From Bacteroidota bacterium (lineage in GTDB: Bacteria > Bacteroidota > Bacteroidia > Palsa-948), in assembly GCA_016213405.1 (NCBI GenBank), contig JACRAM010000110.1, positions 1 through 39,212 of the forward strand: DNA of 39,212 bases. The letters run 5' to 3'. Within the stretch, counting starts at the first letter, position 1, and each line of letters starts with the position of its first letter. A program made the translations under genes and the position numbers. Under the pieces are notes generated by a model, which was not told the DNA's origin, did not search any database, and saw only the letters and a program-made list of their open reading frames with translations. Positions 20,397 through 30,616 of the stretch are shown here, piece after piece.

Positions 20397-20464
20397 CAAA
20401 TGTTATAACGCAAGCATTGTGCCATATTGTATATGAGAAATGTTAAAAGATGTTAACAGGTTTG

Positions 20465-20677
20465 TTGCTTTTGCTTACGCGATAGTTAATGTTGTATAAA
20501 CAACCTTAAAAATTGAACGAATAACATTTGAAGCTGAACGAACAACATTTTATTTTAAATGAACGATATTTAAAATTGAATGAATTACTTTTAAAGATGA
20601 ATGAATAACATTTAATGCTGAATGAGCAACACTTAATGTTATATGAACAACATTTAATGTTGGATAAGCAAAAGCAA
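20465..20677. repeat. 13-bp perfect inverted repeat bracketing the 21-nt array
   Basis: TTGCTTTTGCTTA at 20465-20477 is the exact reverse complement of TAAGCAAAAGCAA at 20665-20677. The second copy lies inside the last array unit. Confidence 0.6.
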
Positions 20678-21123: not shown

Positions 21124-22485
21124 ATGAAAAAGAAATTTATTTTGCTGACTTCTACACTCATTTTTATTAGTGTAAATATAAATGCTCAGTGGGCACTTGT
21201 TGGTTCTGCTGGTTTTTCCGCAGGTCAGACATATTTTAATTCCATAGCAATTGACGGTAATGGCACTCCTTATGTAGTTTATCAGGATTTTGGAAATTCA
21301 TGGAATGCAACTGTTATGAAGTATAATGGGACAAATTGGGTAAATGTTGGTTCTCCTGGATTTTCTACAGATACTGTATTTTATACTGATATAGCTATTA
21401 ACAATAATAATGAACCTTTCGTGGTATATCAGGATTTTGGAAATTCATATAGAGCCACTGTAAAAAAATTTGATGGGACAAATTGGGTGAATGTTGGTTC
21501 TGCCGGGTTTTCAGCGGGAGCAGCATTTTATAATTCAATAGCAATGGACACAAACGGAACTCCTTATGTCGCATATCAAGATGGTGGAAATTCGTGGAAA
21601 GCTACGGTAATGAAGTTTGACGGTACAAATTGGGTAAATGTTGGTTCTCCCGGGTTTTCTCCTGACCAAGTTGTAGACGGACCCAAAATAAAGATTAGTA
21701 ATAATGGTACACCATTCGTGGTTTATCAAGACCCAGGCATCTCAAGAAAAGCGACAGTTATGAAATTCGATGGTACAAACTGGACTATTGTCGGTTTACA
21801 AGGTTTTTCTGCCGATACAGCATATAATCCATCAATTGCAATAGACAGTAATAATACTCCTTTTGTAGTTTATGGAGATTATTCCATTTCCGGAAAAGCA
21901 ACAGTTATGAAATTTGACGGTATGAATTGGGTTACTGTGGGTGCGGCAGGGTTCTCTGCTGGTTATGCCCTAAGTACATCTATCGCCATTGACAATAACG
22001 GAACTCCACTTGTAGTTTATTCAGATTATGGAAATAACTACAAAGCAACAGCAATGAAGTTTAACGGAACTAATTGGATTAATGTTGGTAATGCAGGATT
22101 TTCAGCAGGAGGAGTAGTTTATACTTGCATAAAAATTGATGACAACGGAACCCCTTACGTTGTTTACCAAGACGGAGCACATTCAGGCAAAGCCACAGTC
22201 ATGAAGTTTATAGGTTCTAATGGTATTCTAAATACCTTGATAGAGATAGGTATTGACATTTATCCCAATCCCTTCTCCACACAAACAACTTTGCAAACAG
22301 ACAATCTTTTACACAACGCAACTCTCACAGTTTACAATTGTTTCGGGCAGGAAGTAAAGTCATTAGTCATTAGTCATTCGCCATTCGTCATTGAGCGAGG
22401 CAATCTTCCAAGCGGACTGTATTTCATTCGGCTGACAGAAGAAAATAAAACCTATGCAAAAGAGAAATTAATAATAACGGACTGA
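21124..22485 (+). CDS. Seven-repeat beta-propeller T9SS cargo protein
   Basis: 453 residues. A signal peptide (cut near NINAQ, residue 22) is followed by seven very regular ~49-residue repeats, each with W-V-N-V-G-S-x-GFS, a SIAIDxNGTPYVVYQD strand and KATVMKFDGTN. Seven equal units predict a closed seven-bladed propeller. The last ~80 residues are a T9SS type A sorting domain (IDIYPNPFSTQTTLQ, TVYNCFGQEVKSL, SGLYFIRLTEENKTYAKEK). Between its strands the peptide VISHSPFVIE is encoded by a short tandem repeat (22358-22392), an in-frame repeat insertion. The stop abuts the stop of the convergent DPP-IV gene with no gap. Likely a secreted or surface-bound binding protein; ligand unknown. Confidence 0.9.
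   Translation: MKKKFILLTSTLIFISVNINAQWALVGSAGFSAGQTYFNSIAIDGNGTPYVVYQDFGNSWNATVMKYNGTNWVNVGSPGFSTDTVFYTDIAINNNNEPFVVYQDFGNSYRATVKKFDGTNWVNVGSAGFSAGAAFYNSIAMDTNGTPYVAYQDGGNSWKATVMKFDGTNWVNVGSPGFSPDQVVDGPKIKISNNGTPFVVYQDPGISRKATVMKFDGTNWTIVGLQGFSADTAYNPSIAIDSNNTPFVVYGDYSISGKATVMKFDGMNWVTVGAAGFSAGYALSTSIAIDNNGTPLVVYSDYGNNYKATAMKFNGTNWINVGNAGFSAGGVVYTCIKIDDNGTPYVVYQDGAHSGKATVMKFIGSNGILNTLIEIGIDIYPNPFSTQTTLQTDNLLHNATLTVYNCFGQEVKSLVISHSPFVIERGNLPSGLYFIRLTEENKTYAKEKLIITD
22358..22392. repeat. Tandem 'AGTCATT' repeat inside a T9SS sorting domain
   Basis: Iterations of AGTCATT or CGTCATT (about four copies, plus CGCCATT) are read in frame as LVISHSPFVIE. The repeat sits in the loop between two conserved strands of the sorting domain (FGQEVKS and SGLYFIRL). 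Confidence 0.65.
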
Positions 22486-24813
22486 TTACAAATTCCCCAA
22501 CACAAAATTCGTCAGCTTAGTATACAAATGCAGGCGCGTGTTGCCTCCGTAAATGCTATGGTTCTTATCAGGATAAATCATCAGGTCGAATTGTTTGTTT
22601 GCCTGCTGTAATGCAGAAATCATTTCGGCAGAGTTCTGAAAATGCACATTGTCATCGCCTGTTCCGTGCACAAGCAGAAAATTTCCTTTTAGTTTATCCA
22701 CGTGATTGATGGGCGAATTGTCGTCATACCCTTTAGCGTTATCCTTAGGCAAACCCATATATCTCTCTGTATAAATGTTATCATAGTATATCCAGTTGGT
22801 AACGGGCGCAACCGCTATCGCCATCTTGAATATATCCGCGCCTTTCATAATGCACAGCGAACTCATGTATCCGCCATAGCTCCATCCCCATATGCCGATT
22901 CGGTTTTTGTCAACATAAGGGAGCGTGCCTAAATATTTTGCCGCTTCAATCTGGTCTTCGGTTTCATATTTTCCCAACTGCTTGTAGGTGCAATCTCTGA
23001 ATTTTTTTCCGCGTCCGCCCGTGCCGCGGTTATCCACCGAAACAATAATATATCCTTTGGCGCAAAGCATCTGGTACCAGAAATAATCTCTGTCCCATGT
23101 ATCATTCACGGTGTTCGCGCCCGGTCCGCCATACACAAACATCAGGACGGGAAAAGCCCCCCCTCCCCCCGAAGGGGGGATATTAAAAGAGGTGCTTTTA
23201 TTTTTTCCCCCTTCGGGGGATTGAGGGGGCTTCATCATCCACCCGTTCAATTCTGTTCCATCGCTTGTTTTGAATTTGAAAAACTCTTTGGTAACAAGGT
23301 TGTAGTCGTTTAACTTTCTCAGCAAAGCAGTGTTGTCCTCCAGCGTGCGAACTTCCGCGCCATCGGCAGAGCGCAGAACGGTAACAGGCGGACGGTTTGC
23401 GTTGGTGTACGTGTGAATGTAATACGTGCAGGTGGAATTAAATTCCGCATCATCCGTTCCCGGAATGGGAGAAAGTTTTTTTCTGTTCTGTCCGTCTAAT
23501 GTAATAGAGTAAAGGGTTTTTTCGTTCGGAGATATTTCATCAGACAAATAATAAATGATTTGTTTTTTGTCATCATAGCCCTTCAACTCTGTCACTTCCC
23601 AGTTTCCTTTTGTGATTTGGTAATTTAAATCTCCGTTAATATTATAAAGATAAAGATGGTTGTATCCGTCCCGCTCGCTTGTCCAGATAAACTCTTTACC
23701 GTTTGGAAGGAATGTTAAGTTGTCAGAAATTTCAATGTACGTGTCGCTGGTTTCGGTGAGAATAGTTGTTGTTTGCGCGGAGAAAGGGTAAGCAAGCAGA
23801 AGTTCTAATTTGTTTTGCAAACGGTTCATGCGCTGAATGGAAAGAACAGGCAATGTAATATCAGAACCGATTTTCATTGGCTGAAAAAACTGAGTCCACT
23901 TTATTCGCGGTATGTATTCATAATCGTTTCCTAAATCAATCATCTGTTTCAGCGCTGTCTTCACATCGTAAATAAAAATGGAAACTTTAGAATTATCTTC
24001 TCCCGCCTTTGGATATTTGAATTTGTATTCAGTAGGGTAGAGGGTTCCATACTTGTTCATGGAAAATTCTTTCACCTTGGATTCGTCAAAGCGGTAATAC
24101 GCAATCTTGTTTCCGTCAGGCGACCAGAACCATGCTTTGTCAAAAGAAAATTCTTCTTCATACACCCAGTCTGTTGCGCCATTGATGATGTTGTTGACTT
24201 TTCCATCTGAAGTAACTTGTGTTTCTTTTTTCGAAGCGATGTCATAAACAAAAAGATTATTGTCGCGCACAAAACCTATTTTGCTTCCGTCAGGAGAAAA
24301 CTCCGCATACATCTGTTTTCCGTTTTGCGATATAAAAGTGGTTGCCTTTGTTTTTCTGTCATAGATATAATAATTTTCTCTGGTTGAATGGCGGTAAATC
24401 TGTTCTGACTCCGAAGAGATAAGCAGTTTGCTTTCATCCGCATTGAACTGGTAATCTTCAATCTCAATGGCTGTTTGCCCCCCTTTGGAGGCAACCGAAG
24501 GTTGGGAGCGAAGCTCGAAGGGGGAGGATTTCATCCAACTGCTTTTCAAGACTGTATCAACGGCATTTCCTGTTTTGTATTCATACATCACAATGAATTG
24601 TTCTAATGTATTTGCTCCCTGCGTGGTGTAATGCTCTCCGTTCTTCATCGAGCGGATGCCGTAAATTCTTTTTACCGCGAACGTGTTTTTCTGGAAAAGG
24701 TCTTCAAGAGTGATTTCCTTTTTCTGAGCAAGAGCCCATCCCCAACCCTTCCCCAAGGGAAGGGAGAATATAATCGCTGTGATGAGTGCTAATGAATAAT
24801 TCCTGTTTTGCAT
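22486..24813 (-). CDS. S9 family prolyl oligopeptidase, DPP-IV-like
   Basis: 775 residues. Signal peptide, then a DPP-IV N-terminal beta-propeller (NNIINGATDWVYEEEFSFDK, AWFWSPDGNKIAYYRFDESK, LTFLPNGKEFIWTSERDGYN) and an alpha/beta-hydrolase domain from ~residue 520. The catalytic triad is intact: Ser645 in GWSYGGYMS, Asp720 in HGTGDDNVHF and His752 in DKNHSIYGG. The DWVYEEE glutamate pair that holds the free N-terminus of substrates in DPP-IV is present, so release of Xaa-Pro dipeptides is expected, in the periplasm or at the surface. Three stretches look like translated repeats and have no counterpart in usual family members: ~residues 17-27 (signal peptide), 96-112 and 529-553, the last between the propeller and hydrolase domains. 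Confidence 0.95.
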   Translation of the reverse strand: MQNRNYSLALITAIIFSLPLGKGWGWALAQKKEITLEDLFQKNTFAVKRIYGIRSMKNGEHYTTQGANTLEQFIVMYEYKTGNAVDTVLKSSWMKSSPFELRSQPSVASKGGQTAIEIEDYQFNADESKLLISSESEQIYRHSTRENYYIYDRKTKATTFISQNGKQMYAEFSPDGSKIGFVRDNNLFVYDIASKKETQVTSDGKVNNIINGATDWVYEEEFSFDKAWFWSPDGNKIAYYRFDESKVKEFSMNKYGTLYPTEYKFKYPKAGEDNSKVSIFIYDVKTALKQMIDLGNDYEYIPRIKWTQFFQPMKIGSDITLPVLSIQRMNRLQNKLELLLAYPFSAQTTTILTETSDTYIEISDNLTFLPNGKEFIWTSERDGYNHLYLYNINGDLNYQITKGNWEVTELKGYDDKKQIIYYLSDEISPNEKTLYSITLDGQNRKKLSPIPGTDDAEFNSTCTYYIHTYTNANRPPVTVLRSADGAEVRTLEDNTALLRKLNDYNLVTKEFFKFKTSDGTELNGWMMKPPQSPEGGKNKSTSFNIPPSGGGGAFPVLMFVYGGPGANTVNDTWDRDYFWYQMLCAKGYIIVSVDNRGTGGRGKKFRDCTYKQLGKYETEDQIEAAKYLGTLPYVDKNRIGIWGWSYGGYMSSLCIMKGADIFKMAIAVAPVTNWIYYDNIYTERYMGLPKDNAKGYDDNSPINHVDKLKGNFLLVHGTGDDNVHFQNSAEMISALQQANKQFDLMIYPDKNHSIYGGNTRLHLYTKLTNFVLGNL
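23155..23232. repeat. Double-hairpin palindromic element inside the DPP-IV gene (family A, copy 1)
   Basis: The arms are imperfect inverted repeats, about 23155-23180 and 23206-23232. Each holds its own hairpin (CCCCCCGAAGGGGGG; CCCCCTTCGGGGG). Between them is a spacer that is A-rich on the coding strand (AAAAAATAAAAGCACCT). It is translated as 25 extra residues rich in Pro, Gly and Lys (PPQSPEGGKNKS onwards). The build matches the copy in rluD at 30143-30210. Confidence 0.8.
24477..24527. repeat. Palindromic element inside the DPP-IV gene, 51 bp in frame
   Basis: The outer arms GCCCCCCTTTGGAGG and CGAAGGGGGAGG oppose each other, with GCAACCGAAGGTTG and GAGCGAAGCTC hairpins inside. It adds 17 residues (SSPFELRSQPSVASKGG). 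Similar GCAACC...GGTTGC words occur between genes at 30642-30656. Confidence 0.65.
24734..24768. repeat. Palindromic repeat inside the DPP-IV signal peptide
   Basis: CCCTTCCCCAAGGGAAGGG forms a hairpin and the flank CCCATCCCCAACCC completes a G/C-skewed repeat. In frame it gives SLPLGKGWGWA, an odd Gly/Trp-rich end for a signal peptide. Confidence 0.6.
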
Positions 24814-24843
24814 AAAATTATTTTAAAGTTTGAAGATACTATA

Positions 24844-25875
24844 TTATTTCTCTCTCTTCCCTTGGGGGGGATAAGGAGAGGGACTTAGGTATATCTCTAC
24901 CCTCAACTTCACATTTTCCCTTATGTTCATCCAGAAAAGATTGTAGTCAAGCACGTGATAGTTTTTGCCATTCACATATCCTCTTTTTGGTTTCTTATGA
25001 ACCCAGAGCAAACCGGTGGGAGATATTTTCGCATTGGCATATTCTTTATCTATCCCCTTAAATCCATAGGGAACACTTCCAAGATTATTTGTGGCTGGAG
25101 CGGCAACAGTGTCGCGTTTCCACGTGAGAGGATTCACACATTCAAGATTATTGCCCAGATAAGAATTGTTCTTCACTCCCCATTTCTTTGTGTTCCAGCA
25201 AACCAAACATCCGGTCTGCGAGGCGGAATCACTGGCGGGAATATTTTTATATGAATTCTTTTTTAACGGACCTCCGATAATGTAGGCAGCAATTAATTTC
25301 CCCCTGAGCAGTGAGTCCTTGTCAAAATAATCATGAAGCAATTTTTCGGCATGCCATGAGCCCTGGCTGTGCGATGCGATAATGAACGGACGTCCGTTGT
25401 TGTAATTCTTCAGATAATAGTCAAAGGCTTTTTTCACATCATCATAAGCGAGGTCAAGAGATTTTTTTCCGCTTCCTTCCAGTTTGGCAAAAGCCCAAAG
25501 CACTGCCTGACGATAGCGTGGTGCATACACTTTGCAGCTTTCATTGAATACGCTTGCCTGGTGGCGAATAGTGCTTTTGTCAATCTTGCGATTCAATCTT
25601 TTTTTATTCACATCCGCATTCCAATGTTTGCCGGTGAGATAAATAGTTGGATAAATAAAGAACACATCCACTTTAGCATTTGCCTGTTCGTCTTTGATAT
25701 CAGAACCATAAGGTAGTGCATCCGCGCTGTCCTTTTTAGTGGGAAGCGCAGCCCAGTATTTATCCTGAGAATAATCGGGAGCAGCTGCTATTTTGGAATG
25801 GTCAAAAGATTTGATGGGAGCGAGGCAGGAGGCGAACAGCAGTGGCAGCAGCAGACAGGAAAATCGTTGATACAT
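24844..25875 (-). CDS. DUF3089 alpha/beta-hydrolase lipoprotein
   Basis: 343 residues. The N-terminus has a lipobox (LLFASC), so it is a lipoprotein. VDVFFIYPTIYLTGKHWNAD, CKVYAPRYRQAVLWAF and DVKKAFDYYLKNYNNGRPFI followed by IASHSQGSWHA are hallmarks of the DUF3089 family; Ser170 in HSQGS is the expected nucleophile. The substrate is unknown; the family is related to lipases and esterases. The C-terminal tail (YLSPSPYPPQGKREK) is encoded by a repeat-like stretch (24855-24888) and looks like an acquired extension. It is on the same strand as the DPP-IV gene, 30 nt upstream of it, so the two may form one transcript. Confidence 0.85.
   Translation of the reverse strand: MYQRFSCLLLPLLFASCLAPIKSFDHSKIAAAPDYSQDKYWAALPTKKDSADALPYGSDIKDEQANAKVDVFFIYPTIYLTGKHWNADVNKKRLNRKIDKSTIRHQASVFNESCKVYAPRYRQAVLWAFAKLEGSGKKSLDLAYDDVKKAFDYYLKNYNNGRPFIIASHSQGSWHAEKLLHDYFDKDSLLRGKLIAAYIIGGPLKKNSYKNIPASDSASQTGCLVCWNTKKWGVKNNSYLGNNLECVNPLTWKRDTVAAPATNNLGSVPYGFKGIDKEYANAKISPTGLLWVHKKPKRGYVNGKNYHVLDYNLFWMNIRENVKLRVEIYLSPSPYPPQGKREK
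24855..24888. repeat. Repeat-derived C-terminus of the DUF3089 gene
   Basis: CTTCCCTTGGGGGGGATAAG then GAGAGGGACTTAGG has the same C/T-rich hairpin vocabulary as the other coding copies (CCCTTGGGG, GGGACTTAGG). It forms the last ~11 codons before the stop. Confidence 0.5.
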
Positions 25876-25940
25876 TTTTATAACTGAATTGTTTGCGAAG
25901 TTAATAATCTGTGTAATCTTGTATTTGAACCGGTGTAATC

Positions 25941-27368
25941 ATGTTCACAAAGATTAGTCCAAAACACATAGAGCAGTTCCAGAACATTGTCGGAAAAGAA
26001 AATGTATTATTTGATACTGATTCTCTTTCAAACTATTCCCATGATGAAACAGAGGATTTAAAATTTCTTCCTGAAGTTGTACTAAAGCCAAACTCTGCTG
26101 AACAGATTTCAGAAATTCTGAAACTGTGCAACAAGGAATTAATTCCTTTAACTCCCCGCGGAGCAGGAACCGGATTAAGCGGAGGTGCGTTGCCTGTGTT
26201 TGGTGGTGTGATTCTTTCCACTGAAAGATTAAATAAGATTCTTGAAATTGATGAGCGTAATTTGCAGGCGACTGCTGAGCCGGGTGTCATTACTCAGGTG
26301 TTTCAGGAAGCGGTGATTGAAAAAGGGTTGTTCTATCCGCCCGATCCATCGAGTAGGGGAAGTTGTTTTCTCGGAGGCAATCTGGCAGAAAGTGCCGGAG
26401 GACCAAGAGCAGTAAAATATGGCGTAACAAAAGAATATGTGCTGAATCTTGAAATGGTTCTGCCTACAGGAGAAATCATCTGGACAGGAGCAAATGTTCT
26501 GAAAAATTCTACCGGATATAATTTAACTCAACTTATTGTCGGCAGTGAAGGAACTCTTGGAGTTATTACAAAAATTGTTTTCAAACTTCTGCCCCATCCG
26601 AAAAAAAACGTAGTGATGTTGGTTCCTTTCTTCTCTGCGGAGAAAGCAAGCGAAGCGGTGTCAGCAGTTTTCCGCGCGGGAGTAATCCCTTCTGCTTTGG
26701 AATTTATGGAGCGTGATGCCATTGATTTTGCCCACCTCCATCTCCTCCCGAAGGGAGGAGTGCACTGGCAAAAAGTCCTTCCCTTTGGGAAGGATTTAGG
26801 ATGGGCTGCATTTCTTCTTATTGAAGTGGACGGAAACGATTTAGAAGTGATGATGAAAGAGGTGGAGCGAATCACAGAAGTAATGGAAAAGTATGAATGC
26901 GGTGAAATTCTTTTTGCAGATACCGAAGAGCAGAAAGAAAATCTTTGGCGCATGCGAAGGTGTCTTGGCGAAGCGGTAAAATCACATTCCGTTTACAAGG
27001 AAGAAGATACGGTTGTTCCCCGCGCTGAACTGCCAAAACTTCTGGCTGGCGTGAAAGCAATAGGGAAGAAGTACGGTTTCAAATCCGTTTGCTATGGACA
27101 TGCGGGAGATGGAAACTTACACGTGAATATTATCAAAGCAGAAATGTCTGACAACAATTGGAACAATGAAATTCCCAAAGCTATTCGCGAAATATTTACT
27201 GTCTGCAAGGAACTGAAAGGAACTATTTCTGGCGAGCACGGCATCGGCTGGGTGCAAAAGAATTACATGGACATTGCTTTTCATCCCAAAGCCATCTTGC
27301 TTCAAAAAGAAATAAAAAAACTTTTTGACCCGAATGGGATTATGAATCCGGGAAAGATGTTTGTATAA
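25941..27368 (+). CDS. FAD-linked oxidase, GlcD/D-lactate dehydrogenase family
   Basis: 475 residues. FAD-binding type 4 domain: VVLKPNSAEQISEILKLCN, LTPRGAGTGLSGGALP, ERNLQATAEPGVITQVFQEA, FYPPDPSSRGSCFLGGNLAE, STGYNLTQLIVGSEGTLGVI. The C-terminal oxidase domain has VCYGHAGDGNLHVNI with the metal-binding His, and ISGEHGIGWVQKNYM. It probably oxidises a 2-hydroxy acid such as glycolate or D-lactate. Glycolate oxidase partners (GlcE/F) are not adjacent. Residues ~264-289 (HLHLLPKGGVHWQKVLPFGK onward) differ from the usual family sequence and are encoded by two back-to-back hairpins, an apparent repeat insertion. A terminator follows the stop. Confidence 0.92.
   Translation: MFTKISPKHIEQFQNIVGKENVLFDTDSLSNYSHDETEDLKFLPEVVLKPNSAEQISEILKLCNKELIPLTPRGAGTGLSGGALPVFGGVILSTERLNKILEIDERNLQATAEPGVITQVFQEAVIEKGLFYPPDPSSRGSCFLGGNLAESAGGPRAVKYGVTKEYVLNLEMVLPTGEIIWTGANVLKNSTGYNLTQLIVGSEGTLGVITKIVFKLLPHPKKNVVMLVPFFSAEKASEAVSAVFRAGVIPSALEFMERDAIDFAHLHLLPKGGVHWQKVLPFGKDLGWAAFLLIEVDGNDLEVMMKEVERITEVMEKYECGEILFADTEEQKENLWRMRRCLGEAVKSHSVYKEEDTVVPRAELPKLLAGVKAIGKKYGFKSVCYGHAGDGNLHVNIIKAEMSDNNWNNEIPKAIREIFTVCKELKGTISGEHGIGWVQKNYMDIAFHPKAILLQKEIKKLFDPNGIMNPGKMFV
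26731..26807. repeat. Two-hairpin repeat inside the FAD oxidase gene
   Basis: CTCCTCCCGAAGGGAGGAG (26742-26760) is a perfect 8-bp hairpin. GTCCTTCCCTTTGGGAAGGA (from 26775) is a second. They are joined by TGCACTGGCAAAAA, and the whole is read in frame as about 26 residues. Confidence 0.75.
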
Positions 27369-27393
27369 TCATCCAAAAGAGATGATTTTTTTC
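27367..27393 (+). terminator. Terminator of the FAD oxidase gene
   Basis: AATCATC (27367-27373) pairs with GATGATT (27381-27387) around CAAAAGA, followed by seven T residues. The first stem arm overlaps the stop codon. Confidence 0.8.
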
Positions 27394-27471
27394 ATGGATA
27401 AATATTTACTTTCTTTATCACTGTAATTGTATCTGCAACAGAAGTCGGATTTTCTACATTTACATCAGATT

Positions 27472-29553
27472 ATGAAACGATTGTTTTTTCCTCTGTTGAT
27501 ATTCATCCTGTTTATCTGTAAATTTTCTATTGCAGAAAACACAGACTCGCTTGAAATAGCATTGAGTAATGCAAAAGAGGACACCGTTAAGTTTTACATT
27601 CTTGATGAACTCACCTGGGACTTTCTTTATTCAGATATTGAAAAAGCAGAACGATACGGAAAAGACGCGCTTCGTCTGGCTTCAGCGTATGATAACCAGA
27701 AAAACCTCGGACAGGCGCATCATAATCTCGCAACCGTATTTCTTCAGCAGAACAAAAATGACAGTGCGCTGTTTCATTTCAAACAGGCAATCCGGATTTT
27801 TGAGGAAGCAGGCATGGATGAAAAAACATCGGGTTCATACAACGGTGTGGGAAATGTATATCTCTATCAGGGTATTTTCGAAAAAGCATTGGAGAATTAT
27901 TTGCAATCACTTCGGCTTCTTGAAAAAGGTAATGGCAAAAAAAATAAAGTCGGGTTGGTTACAGCCAATATCGGCATCGTGTATTACAATCTGAACAATT
28001 TCGACAAGGCGATAGAATACTACAACCGCGCATTGCAAATCAGCATTGAAACGGCTGACTCCTCGGGCATGGCAACTTGCTGCAGTAACCTCGGAAATGT
28101 TTTTAAAGATAAACTGGAGTATAACAAATCAGAAAACTATTTTAAGAAAGCCATTGCAATTTTCGAAAACCTCGGAGAAACATACGGGCTGGCAAACTGC
28201 TACGCAAACATCGGTGCGGTGAAGATGCGCAATAAAAATTATCCTGAAGCAATCGGTTATTACATGCGGGCGATGGATATATACAAAGAACTGAAAAGCG
28301 ATGATGGAATTGCAACTGTTTATTTCGACCTGGGAGGTATAAATCTTGAAATGAAAAAATACCGCAAAGCAATTGACTATCTGAATCAAAGCATTGACAT
28401 TGCAAAAAAAATTGGCGCCAAGAACAGGATTATGGAAGGATACAGCGTGCTGCATGAAGTATATTTTGAAATGAATGATTTAAAGAATGCGTACAAATAC
28501 ATGAATTTATTCATGCAGGTGAAGGACACTGTGCTGAACGAGGAAAACTCAAAAAGTATAGCGCGTATGCAAACCATATACGAAACCGAAAAAAAAGAAC
28601 AAGAACTGGTGGCTAAAAATGCAGAATTAAAAAAGAACCAGTCGGAACTTAAACAAAAAACTATTCAGCGAAATGCAATTTTATTCGGAGGAATAATTTC
28701 TCTCGCGCTGATGGTTGTTGTTTACTTCGGATACCGGGAAAAGAAAAAGGCAAACATTGCCATTACGCTTCAGAAAGAAGAAATAGAGCAGAAAAATAAA
28801 GACATCACGGACAGTATTAACTACGCGAAGAGAATACAAACAGCTATTCTTCCGTCCAGCCAATTTATCAGAAATTTATTTCCGGAATCGTTTGTCTATT
28901 ACCAGCCACGTGATATTGTAAGCGGTGATTTTTATTTTTTCGCTGAAGTAGGAAATAAAAAGATTGTAGCCGCATGTGATTGTACCGGGCACGGGGTTCC
29001 TGGCGCGTTCATGAGCATGATAGGAAATGATTTCCTTCACCGCATAGTAAATGAACTGCAGATTACCGATACGGCACAAATGCTCAATGAACTGCATAAA
29101 AATGTTTTGCAGGCAATGAATCAGGGAGAGAATAACCGGACATCGTATGATGGAATGGACATGGTTGTATTATGTTATGATCCCGGGAAAAAAGAAGTTC
29201 AGTATTCTGGCGCAGTCCGCCCGATATATTATTTTGACGTTTCAGGATTTCATGAAGTAAAGGGAGACCGTTATTCCATTGGCGGAGTAGCCGCGAGTTC
29301 TTTTGAATTTTCTTCACGCAAAATATCAGTGAGCCATAGCACTTCCTTTTATCTTTTTTCTGATGGGTATGCCGACCAGTTTGGCGGCAGCGATGGAAAA
29401 AAATTTATGGCGAAACGATTCAAAGACCTTCTTTTATCTATGCAGAATAAAAAAATGGAAGAACAGGAAAAGGGTTTGGATGAAAAATTACAGGTATGGA
29501 AAAAAGAAAGGGAACAGGTGGATGATGTACTTGTAATCGGAATCAGGATTTGA
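27472..29553 (+). CDS. TPR-repeat membrane protein with C-terminal SpoIIE phosphatase
   Basis: 693 residues from ATG 27472; an upstream TTG would add 15 residues before the signal peptide (MKRLFFPLLIFILFICKF). About seven TPR units follow (HHNLATVFLQQNKNDSALFH, NGVGNVYLYQGIFEKALENY, SNLGNVFKDKLEYNKSENYF), then a coiled coil, one membrane segment (AILFGGIISLALMVVVYFGY, ~residues 402-421), a second coiled coil and a SpoIIE phosphatase domain. Phosphatase motifs are intact: PRDIVSGDFYFF, DCTGHGVPGAFMS, YDGMDMVVL, FSDGYADQFGG, EQVDDVLVIGI. A periplasmic TPR sensor thus controls a cytoplasmic Ser/Thr phosphatase in one chain; the pair at 4310/6065 is the split form. The 3' end overlaps the end of rluD by 11 nt. 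Confidence 0.93.
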   Translation: MKRLFFPLLIFILFICKFSIAENTDSLEIALSNAKEDTVKFYILDELTWDFLYSDIEKAERYGKDALRLASAYDNQKNLGQAHHNLATVFLQQNKNDSALFHFKQAIRIFEEAGMDEKTSGSYNGVGNVYLYQGIFEKALENYLQSLRLLEKGNGKKNKVGLVTANIGIVYYNLNNFDKAIEYYNRALQISIETADSSGMATCCSNLGNVFKDKLEYNKSENYFKKAIAIFENLGETYGLANCYANIGAVKMRNKNYPEAIGYYMRAMDIYKELKSDDGIATVYFDLGGINLEMKKYRKAIDYLNQSIDIAKKIGAKNRIMEGYSVLHEVYFEMNDLKNAYKYMNLFMQVKDTVLNEENSKSIARMQTIYETEKKEQELVAKNAELKKNQSELKQKTIQRNAILFGGIISLALMVVVYFGYREKKKANIAITLQKEEIEQKNKDITDSINYAKRIQTAILPSSQFIRNLFPESFVYYQPRDIVSGDFYFFAEVGNKKIVAACDCTGHGVPGAFMSMIGNDFLHRIVNELQITDTAQMLNELHKNVLQAMNQGENNRTSYDGMDMVVLCYDPGKKEVQYSGAVRPIYYFDVSGFHEVKGDRYSIGGVAASSFEFSSRKISVSHSTSFYLFSDGYADQFGGSDGKKFMAKRFKDLLLSMQNKKMEEQEKGLDEKLQVWKKEREQVDDVLVIGIRI

Positions 29554-30616
29554 ATTTCTTCCACATGCTGATTACTTCTTTCATATCTTCAGGCAAATCA
29601 GATTCAAACTCCATAAGCTTTTTTGTAGTGGGATGTTTGAATGAAAGATATTTCGCGTGAAGCGCCTGCCGGGAACAAATCTGAAAACATTTTTCAACCA
29701 TTCCCTTATATTTTGCGTTGGCTGAACTCTTCAACACTTTATCGCCACCGTAATCAATATCTCCGAAAACCGTATGCCCGATGTGTTTCATGTGTACGCG
29801 AATCTGGTGAGTGCGCCCTGTTTCTAATTTGCATTCTACCAGCGAAACATAGCCGAGACTTTCAATGAGTTTGTAATGTGTGATTGCTGCCTTTCCATGA
29901 TTCCCATCCGGATAAGCAGCCATTTTTTTTCTATCGCTCTGACTTCTGCCGATGTGCACATTCACCGTGCCTTCTTTTTCTTTCGGTTCTCCCCATACAA
30001 GCGCCACGTATCTTCTGGAAATATTTCTGTCAAACATGTCCTTAGCCAGTTTAGCAAGAGATAATTCATTTTTTGCTATAATAATTAATCCTGAAGTTTC
30101 TTTATCAAGGCGATGAACCAATCCGGGGCGGACAGATGAGTCTTGCCCCTGCCCTAAAGGGAGTACAGGTGATTGCTTTTTGTTTTTTTCGCCCTTTAGG
30201 GTCGGGGCTTGGTTTAAGTAATACAGCAACGCGTTCACCAATGTCCCGGTATAATTTCCATAAGCTGGGTGAACCACCATTCCGGCTTTTTTATTTATTA
30301 CAAGTAAATCATCATCTTCATAAACAATATCAAGCGGAATATTTTCGGGAGTGATATGGATTTCTTTCGGAGGATAGGCGAGAACTATCGTAATAACATC
30401 TTCAGGTTTTACTTTGTAACTTGATTTAACAGATTTGCCGTTCACATGGATATTGCCCGCTTCAGCGGCATACTGAACCCTTGTGCGGGTAGAATTTGCA
30501 ATGTGAGAGAAAAGATATTTGTCAATGCGGACTGGTTCCTGTCCTTTATCAACAACAAATTTTTTATGATCGAATAACTCTTCTTCTTTATGTTCTTCTT
30601 CAGTATTCATAGTCAT
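29543..30616 (-). CDS. rluD: 23S rRNA pseudouridine synthase, RluD type
   Basis: 357 residues. An S4 RNA-binding domain at the start (VRIDKYLFSHIANSTRTRVQ, AGNIHVNGKSVKSSYKVKPE), then the catalytic domain with LVHRLDKETSGLIIIAK holding the catalytic Asp, and LETGRTHQIRVHMKHIGH near the end. RluD modifies helix 69 of 23S rRNA; the exact target here is inferred from the family. Between VNALLYYLN and SVRPGLVHRL, where relatives have a short loop, this protein has ~23 extra residues (APTLKGEKNKKQSPVLPLG onward) encoded by a palindromic repeat. The insertion sits close to the active site and yet the gene is open and all motifs are kept. Confidence 0.94.
   Translation of the reverse strand: MTMNTEEEHKEEELFDHKKFVVDKGQEPVRIDKYLFSHIANSTRTRVQYAAEAGNIHVNGKSVKSSYKVKPEDVITIVLAYPPKEIHITPENIPLDIVYEDDDLLVINKKAGMVVHPAYGNYTGTLVNALLYYLNQAPTLKGEKNKKQSPVLPLGQGQDSSVRPGLVHRLDKETSGLIIIAKNELSLAKLAKDMFDRNISRRYVALVWGEPKEKEGTVNVHIGRSQSDRKKMAAYPDGNHGKAAITHYKLIESLGYVSLVECKLETGRTHQIRVHMKHIGHTVFGDIDYGGDKVLKSSANAKYKGMVEKCFQICSRQALHAKYLSFKHPTTKKLMEFESDLPEDMKEVISMWKKFKS
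30143..30210. repeat. Double-hairpin palindromic element inside rluD (family A, copy 2)
   Basis: Left arm TTGCCCCTGCCCTAAAGGG (30143-30161), right arm CCCTTTAGGGTCGGGGCTT (30192-30210). They are inverted with respect to each other and each holds its own CCCTAAAGGG palindrome. The spacer is A-rich on the coding strand (GAAAAAAACAAAAAGCA) and has ACCT as in copy 1 at 23155. It is translated without a stop. Confidence 0.8.

Follow-up and report, generated by a model that had tools for sequence, protein, structure and literature searches.

A palindromic repeat family with a mirror-image third strand, resident in frame within conserved genes of a Bacteroidota genome

Palindromic inserts in the window

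The DNA analysed here (the window) comprises positions 1–39,212 of contig JACRAM010000110.1 of a Bacteroidota bacterium (assembly GCA_016213405.1), and it carries short palindromic elements within the codons of three genes: dipeptidyl peptidase IV (DPP-IV; 22486–24813, minus strand, 775 aa, Pfam DPPIV_N and Peptidase_S9), an FAD-linked oxidase (25941–27368, plus strand, 475 aa) and an RluD-type pseudouridine synthase (29543–30616, minus strand, 357 aa, Pfam PseudoU_synth_2 and S4, matching RluD of solved structures). The named matches of DPP-IV are all from Bacteroidota, the closest being 54 % identical. The genome holding the window (G000) comprises 3.65 Mb in 127 contigs.

A sequence-only reading of the window had reported in-frame palindromes in DPP-IV and RluD; both are present where it placed them, and both frames are open. 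The intact elements consist of units with a common build, namely a G, a pyrimidine arm and a hairpin, with the arm mirroring the 5′ strand of the hairpin. The DPP-IV insert (23154–23232, minus strand, 79 bp, AAG...CTT, residues ~527–553) is a dimer of two inverted units with short stems that are C-only or almost C-only. One unit lies on the plus strand at 23156–23180 (GCCCCCCC TCCCCCC gaa GGGGGGA; mirror match 6/7) and the other on the minus strand at 23206–23230 (arm CCCCCT, loop CAA, hairpin TCCCCC gaa GGGGGA; mirror match 6/6). The RluD insert (30143–30210, minus strand) resembles it in overall build, as had been proposed; however, it belongs to a sister type, CCCTAAAGGG, and is an eroded dimer that has kept its palindrome and lost its mirror arm. 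The GCA/ACCT spacer motif of the sequence-only reading is loosely visible in some copies.

Two further elements had been overlooked. An intact 77-bp dimer lies in frame in the FAD-linked oxidase (26730–26806, plus strand), both of its arms obeying the class II triplet rule described below; the solved homologue 7qh2_C is 11 residues shorter at this place. A single unit (GCCCATCCCCAA CCCTTCCC caa GGGAAGGG; 24734–24764, plus strand, hairpin 24746–24764) occupies the signal-peptide codons of DPP-IV. A seed-free triplex scan, which required 7-nt stems and allowed loops of up to 7 nt, listed three motifs in the window: this unit and both halves of the FAD-oxidase dimer. It missed the DPP-IV dimer because the stems of that element are shorter than the requirement. 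All four window elements fold better as single-stranded DNA than dinucleotide shuffles do (z −3.7 to −5.1), with none of 200 shuffles as stable as the DPP-IV element (z −5.1) and 1/200 as stable as that of RluD (z −3.8).

A third strand that covaries with the hairpin

Arm and hairpin were compared in units drawn from 40 stretches of G000 plus the window. Eighty candidates were collected, 71 of which passed a filter (hairpin arm ending in C, mirror arm of at least six bases), giving 56 distinct arm–hairpin pairs. The mirror relation holds across subtypes: CCCCTCCT occurs with TCCTCCCC, CCCCCTTT with TTCCCCC and CCCCTCTC with CTCTCCCC. Over the 56 pairs, the mean mirror match was 0.934, against 0.822 when arms were shuffled among units (0/2000 shuffles reached the observed value), and it rose to 0.970 versus 0.858 when A opposite T was counted as a match. 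Past the first four positions, it was 0.879 versus 0.677 (shuffle maximum 0.765). Within strata of equal C-run, the residual match remained clear (0.760 versus 0.614, maximum 0.690). The covariation was replicated in G013, a genome of another family (0.956 versus 0.890, 0/1000 shuffles), and more weakly in the congener G003 (0.929 versus 0.881, 2/1000). A direct-repeat alignment of the same G000 pairs gave 0.667 versus 0.655, a value reached by 40/2000 shuffles; direct-repeat and inverted arm–hairpin pairing, both near shuffle level, were rejected.

Class II intrastrand triplex motifs have been defined, in the account of the TM_ECO repeats (PMC4666352; ITxF definition), by three stems of 6–15 nt, loops of 1–6 nt and an antiparallel third strand pairing as G.G:C, A.A:T or T.A:T. 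At 415 of the 428 hairpin-arm positions, the units obey this rule (C-C 342, T-T 57, T-A 16), the substitutions on the G-rich strand being G.G:C, A.A:T and T.A:T. The units fall within the definition as a whole; eroded copies such as that in RluD fall outside it, and a minority of units carry at least one mismatch. Since the arm–hairpin covariation follows the class II (purine-motif) pairing rule, we place the family among the triplex repeats of bacteria, alongside TM_ECO, and on sequence grounds its units look able to form a class II intrastrand DNA triplex. The sequence-only reading had overlooked this third strand.

The C/G-richness of the units might instead reflect G-quadruplexes or plain low-complexity drift. 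We consider this extremely improbable, as many units have two long G-tracts only (e.g. GGGGGA TTGA GGGGG) and the T and A positions of the arm follow the T positions of the hairpin.

Family size and spread

That the inserts represent a multi-copy family had been proposed from two copies, and many more are present. The sequence CCCCCNAAGGGGG occurs 33 times in G000 and its reversed pattern not at all; the pattern AGCCCCN{4,12}CCCN{3,5}GGG returned 229 register-inclusive matches against 3 for the control and a stricter pattern 128 against 0, where one match is not one unit, as several registers of a single unit can match. The seed-free scan, run on stretches preselected for pattern matches, found 109 motifs in 420 kb of G000, 28 in 155 kb of G003 and 30 in 262 kb of G013, and none in one first-order Markov control per genome. 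G000 holds about 100 or more copies of the triplex-type repeat. Ten of the 61 sampled G000 elements are inverted pairs, and eight more such dimers were found in G003 and G013; all 18 consist of two inverted units and span 64–105 bp.

Matches to the stricter pattern occur in 24/60 genomes (G000 counted), with 3 to 51 in the six congeners (G001–G006) and 72 in G013. In a sample of the phylum, 62/296 genomes (G000 counted) contained a match, many of these being single matches that may be due to chance.

Residence in conserved genes

Inside ATG open reading frames (ORFs) of at least 100 aa lie 43 of the 61 sampled G000 elements, compared with a fraction of 0.873 for random stretches, which amounts to a mild depletion in ORFs. 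We scanned 40 ORFs with Pfam (39 of the 41 distinct element-bearing ORFs plus RluD); 35 contained a Pfam family, and in 18, by our own count, the element sits inside the best-matched domain stretch. The latter include phosphoglycerate mutase (iPGM), an IleRS-like protein (a class I synthetase, named from its domains), PurA, pantoate ligase (PanC), an ABC transporter, RF3, an amino-acid kinase domain, ferrochelatase and RluD, while MetRS, UvrA, DnaX and a class II synthetase carry their unit outside the listed domain stretches. Among single units in ORFs of at least 150 aa in G000, G003 and G013, the G-rich strand is the coding strand in 51/75 (two-sided P = 0.002); open frames predict a share of 0.49 and leave this bias unexplained.

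The DPP-IV insert is predicted to form a disordered stretch between two strands: in a structural model based on 31 aligned sequences (mean predicted local distance difference test score, pLDDT, 85.3), residues 534–551 have pLDDT <50 and lie between strands 521–527 and 554–560. The corresponding place in the solved homologue 7y4f is a short turn.

Empty and refilled sites in related species

We then followed nine element-bearing loci into the congeners and, for some genes, G013 or outgroups. The counts leave out several gene–genome combinations: RluD in G003 (partly covered) and G002 (distant paralogue only), iPGM in G001 and G002 and IleRS in G002 (no match found or a 33 % paralogue only), PanC of G003 (partial), FAD oxidase of G002 (uncovered) and ferrochelatase of G013 (28 % identical).

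The ferrochelatase loop lacks an insert in G001, G002 and G004 as well as in three outgroups, and contains different palindromic elements in G003, G005 and G006. The DPP-IV loop is empty in the same three congeners and holds other palindromes in G003, G005 and G006 (eroded). Among 80 fetched DPP-IV orthologues, 20 fit the anchor pattern, and 19 of these share the same short span. At the RluD site, G001 and G004 are empty, G005 has a different dimer, and the eroded copy in G006 resembles the G000 one. The iPGM site is filled in G003, G004 and G005 and empty in G006; that of PurA is filled in G003 and G006 and empty in four genomes; that of IleRS is filled in G004, G005 and G013 and empty in three. 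In the FAD oxidase, palindromic elements recognised by eye lie at the same codons in G003, G004 and G005, and the site is empty in G001 and G006. No recurrence was seen for RF3 (0/6 orthologues) or PanC (0/4 covered orthologues).

In total, 7/9 loci have a palindromic element at the same position in at least one sister species, mostly of a different type, and 18/46 gene–genome cells were scored by eye as filled. A fixed rule for GC-rich hairpins applied to eight genes (FAD oxidase excluded) scored 12/41 orthologous sites versus 11/448 other windows of the same ORFs (P = 1.7e-8), the DPP-IV hairpin of G005 having been entered as both site and background. A stricter first rule gave 8/41 sites versus 11/644 windows; one of these eight, in IleRS of G001, is a chance hairpin at an empty site that the later fixed rule no longer scores. 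An intragenic load of 100–200 copies over ~3000 genes would, as a rough estimate, fill a given loop in under ~5 % of species; set against 18/46 filled cells, this speaks for a small set of sites.

The residence of a palindromic family in frame in ordinary genes is borne out, and some sister species without the insert keep the ancestral loop. Orthologues sharing the same extra residues, which would have marked the inserts as ancient protein loops, were not encountered, the sole exception seen being the eroded RluD copy of G006; the empty orthologues rule such loops out. That sister species carry different elements at these very codons had escaped the sequence-only reading.

A single ancient insertion per site, diversified in place by ectopic gene conversion and lost in some species, would also explain why several species are filled at the same codon positions, and it gains some weight from the clear likeness of the RluD elements of G000 and G006 and the similarity of the right-hand FAD-oxidase units of G000, G004 and G005. 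We nevertheless judge it unlikely. Empty species share their loop residues with one another and, in ferrochelatase, with outgroups, so that each loss would have to restore them, and the uniform short DPP-IV span poses the same difficulty. Moreover, a tree of 1390 aligned residues (gaps for missing genes) separates G000 and G004 from the other five congeners and the outgroups (support 82), with those five forming a group (support 99; inner nodes 51, 58 and 98), and filled and empty states therefore interleave on it, some of the inner nodes being weak. Transfer of alleles between species was rejected, there being no sign of it in flanking DNA: filled pairs are no more alike in their flanks than filled–empty pairs (−0.004 versus +0.001; filled states by eye).

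The clustering of elements at few codons of conserved genes, together with the coding-strand bias of the G-rich strand, could alternatively point to a selected function: the triplex or the peptide would adjust how housekeeping genes are expressed or folded, and insertions at these loops would be favoured. This seems decidedly improbable to us, given that the genes are kept in species without an element, that the same site is filled by different families, that copies erode (RluD) and that elements are mildly depleted in ORFs.

Two separate observations concern these sites. The palindrome in the DPP-IV loop of G005 (GTTGGTCGGGATTTCAAATCCCGACCAGC, locus L312) is of a different, non-triplex type, suggesting that the hot spot takes other families. 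In the ABC transporter of G003, a unit at the same codons was seen through sample overlap.

Mobility and neighbouring genes

The inverted pairing of short hairpin units raises the question of an ordinary C-rich REPIN moved by a RAYT, in which a Y1 (HUH) transposase recognises hairpin plus arm and the mirror arm is a recognition foot only. Y1 genes are available, with eight PF01797 matches in G000 and 58 in 13 relatives, and Y1 number correlates weakly with unit number over 14 genomes (rho 0.51, P = 0.06). The elements also lack a target-site duplication: none was found in 13 of the 18 dimers, and the mean (1.0 versus 0.91 in the control) and distribution were as in the control. However, in 38 Y1 loci (all eight of G000 and 30 of the 58 from relatives), no unit of this type directly flanks the Y1 gene and the adjacent hairpins are of other types; a GTAG tag lies in or within ~8 nt of only 4/71, 4/27 and 2/35 units; and covariation of the mirror arm from subtype to subtype is not expected of a protein foot. 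A RAYT-driven REPIN in this strict form is thus possible but doubtful. A direct REPtron was rejected on present data, the hairpins near Y1 genes being of other types. Because target-site duplication was not found, an origin as a miniature inverted-repeat transposable element (MITE) of a DDE transposase, for which such duplication is characteristic, was rejected as well.

Two observations relate to the Y1 genes themselves. Two relatives that have no PF01797 match, G001 and G015, contain few units (3 and 7, respectively), as would be expected if Y1 proteins matter, yet other Y1-bearing genomes are equally poor. In G002 (L152, 989–1340), six direct copies of a hairpin, ATGTCCCGTAGGGACAT, spaced by ~65 nt near a Y1 transposase gene, look like a RAYT with its own array of repetitive extragenic palindromes (REPs).

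Within 600 nt of units lie 431 ORFs, and for 53 of these a homologue stands beside a unit in another stretch. Eight ORFs from the top 25 of the 53 were scanned with Pfam and contained no transposase, their products being TPR/cyclase, SprB-repeat surface, ABC ATPase and RadC-domain proteins. One recurrent neighbour is an island in which a single ORF joins a RadC-like domain to a DNA methylase. It occurs twice in G000 (L084, 4652–6277; L098, 4336–6039), with a unit right at the end of the RadC–methylase ORF and just ahead of an ORF starting MKTPITYYGGKQT, and in a related form, likewise with a unit, in G013 (L289, 2484–6928). A third RadC-domain gene (L078, 16509–17267) has one unit on either side.

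A probable REPIN-like palindrome entering tolerant loops

We consider it probable that the family is a proliferating REPIN-like palindrome, built of class II intrastrand-triplex units, that repeatedly enters the same tolerant loops. Copies would be mobilised in the form of folded single-stranded DNA by a trans-acting enzyme, for which Y1 proteins are the natural candidates even though direct adjacency fails. Insertions out of frame or in structured regions would be lost; those in disordered loops would persist, be translated as Pro/Gly/Ser-rich linkers and then erode, the host gaining nothing necessary from them. Recurrence would arise because few loops tolerate an insert, and a preference during insertion may contribute. 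A stronger version, in which insertion is directed to particular loops, so that triplex and palindromic elements re-enter the same codons of orthologous housekeeping genes and these loops are genuine hot spots and a source of new linkers, is one that we advance tentatively and would not yet bet on.

Several results weigh against a proliferating triplex palindrome that independently re-enters loops. The triplex is only implied, by covariation, and in C-run strata that covariation is borderline in G013 (0.743 versus 0.590, equalling the highest shuffle, 0.743) and not significant in G003 (0.722 versus 0.671, inside the shuffle range, maximum 0.778). The fixed hairpin rule scores only 1/5 FAD-oxidase orthologues, three of which were filled by eye. 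The RluD copies of G000 and G006 are alike though G004, which groups with G000, is empty, a pattern that fits neither simple descent nor wholly independent gain. A mirror-type unit is present in 5/38 Y1 loci, the nearest, ~300 nt away, being the REP type of that locus itself and the others lying ~640 nt away or more. Finally, some copies may spread on larger elements, with the RadC/DNA-methylase island as a possible vehicle.

Relation to known repeats

TM_ECO (Holder et al. 2015, PMC4666352) is the closest described system, sharing with the G000 family a class II purine-motif triplex (C stem, G stem and third G strand) with short loops in which A.A:T or T.A:T is allowed, some inverted pairs, many copies and, in both cases, no mobile-element link found. 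As described there, it was reported from 262 proteobacterial genomes and is always intergenic in Escherichia coli MG1655; the G000 family, in contrast, is a Bacteroidota family with many covarying subtypes and more than two-thirds of its sampled elements inside ORFs. The word Bacteroidetes does not occur in the main text of that paper. The published consensus, CCCTCNCCC N3-6 GGGNGAGGG N3 GGGNGAGGG, does not fit the main G000 type, which has a long C run at the hairpin apex. By a loose filter, 14 of the 109 motifs in the G000 stretches are TM_ECO-like, and TM_ECO-like motifs fill some of the same sites. Examples of TM_ECO-like triplex motifs in G000 (CCCTCTCC..GGAGAGGG..GGGGTGAGG) were noted at L085 4691, L086 5793 and L105 7208.

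REP/REPIN systems with RAYTs, as outlined in PMC3733652 and PMC6006769, are likewise non-autonomous short hairpin units occurring in inverted pairs, and REPs inside genes are on record for O. terrae and R. conorii (PMC3733652). They differ in having a GTAG tetranucleotide foot and a RAYT flank in place of the mirror arm. Rickettsia palindromic elements (RPEs), to which the sequence-only reading had likened the inserts, also lie in frame within ORFs of likely functional or conserved proteins. Kinship with them is unsupported: the CGTC tag reported for RPE-4 and RPE-6 repeats (PMC3733652) lies in or within ~8 nt of only 5/71 units, the comparison with known RPEs being by tag and description. The original observation is confirmed and its interpretation supported in part. 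Enterobacterial RU elements (Delihas 2007, PMC2759123) are also small mobile repeats translated within genes; unlike the present family, they are described there as MITE-like units of 103–168 bp.

In a literature search of mostly open-access papers, we found no description of triplex-type repeats in frame in Bacteroidota genes. As far as this search shows, mirror covariation as evolutionary support, a Bacteroidota family and recurrent in-frame residence are new. Bacterial triplex repeats are a known yet unexplained class, backed by sequence abundance and by DNA work on TM_ECO, and three-strand compensation across many subtypes provides an evolutionary signature of triplex-compatible sequence being kept. 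Because copies sit in genes for PurA, ferrochelatase, RF3 and tRNA synthetases, at sites that are empty or refilled in sister species, it becomes possible to test how these palindromes are moved and why certain loops are hit again and again. A loop ‘indel’ in a Bacteroidota protein can be a DNA element, so that such ‘indels’ may be poor phylogenetic markers.

Other features of the window

A possible remnant of an element (SPSPYPPQGKREK; 24851–24883), recognised from its inverted repeat and sequence, lies at the 3′ end of the ORF at 24844–25875. Positions 20459–20677 hold a 21-bp tandem repeat array of seven registers, 61–76 % alike to the reference and flanked by 45-nt inverted arms, and the ORF at 21124–22485 consists of 49-residue repeats (147-nt spacing) behind a signal-like start.

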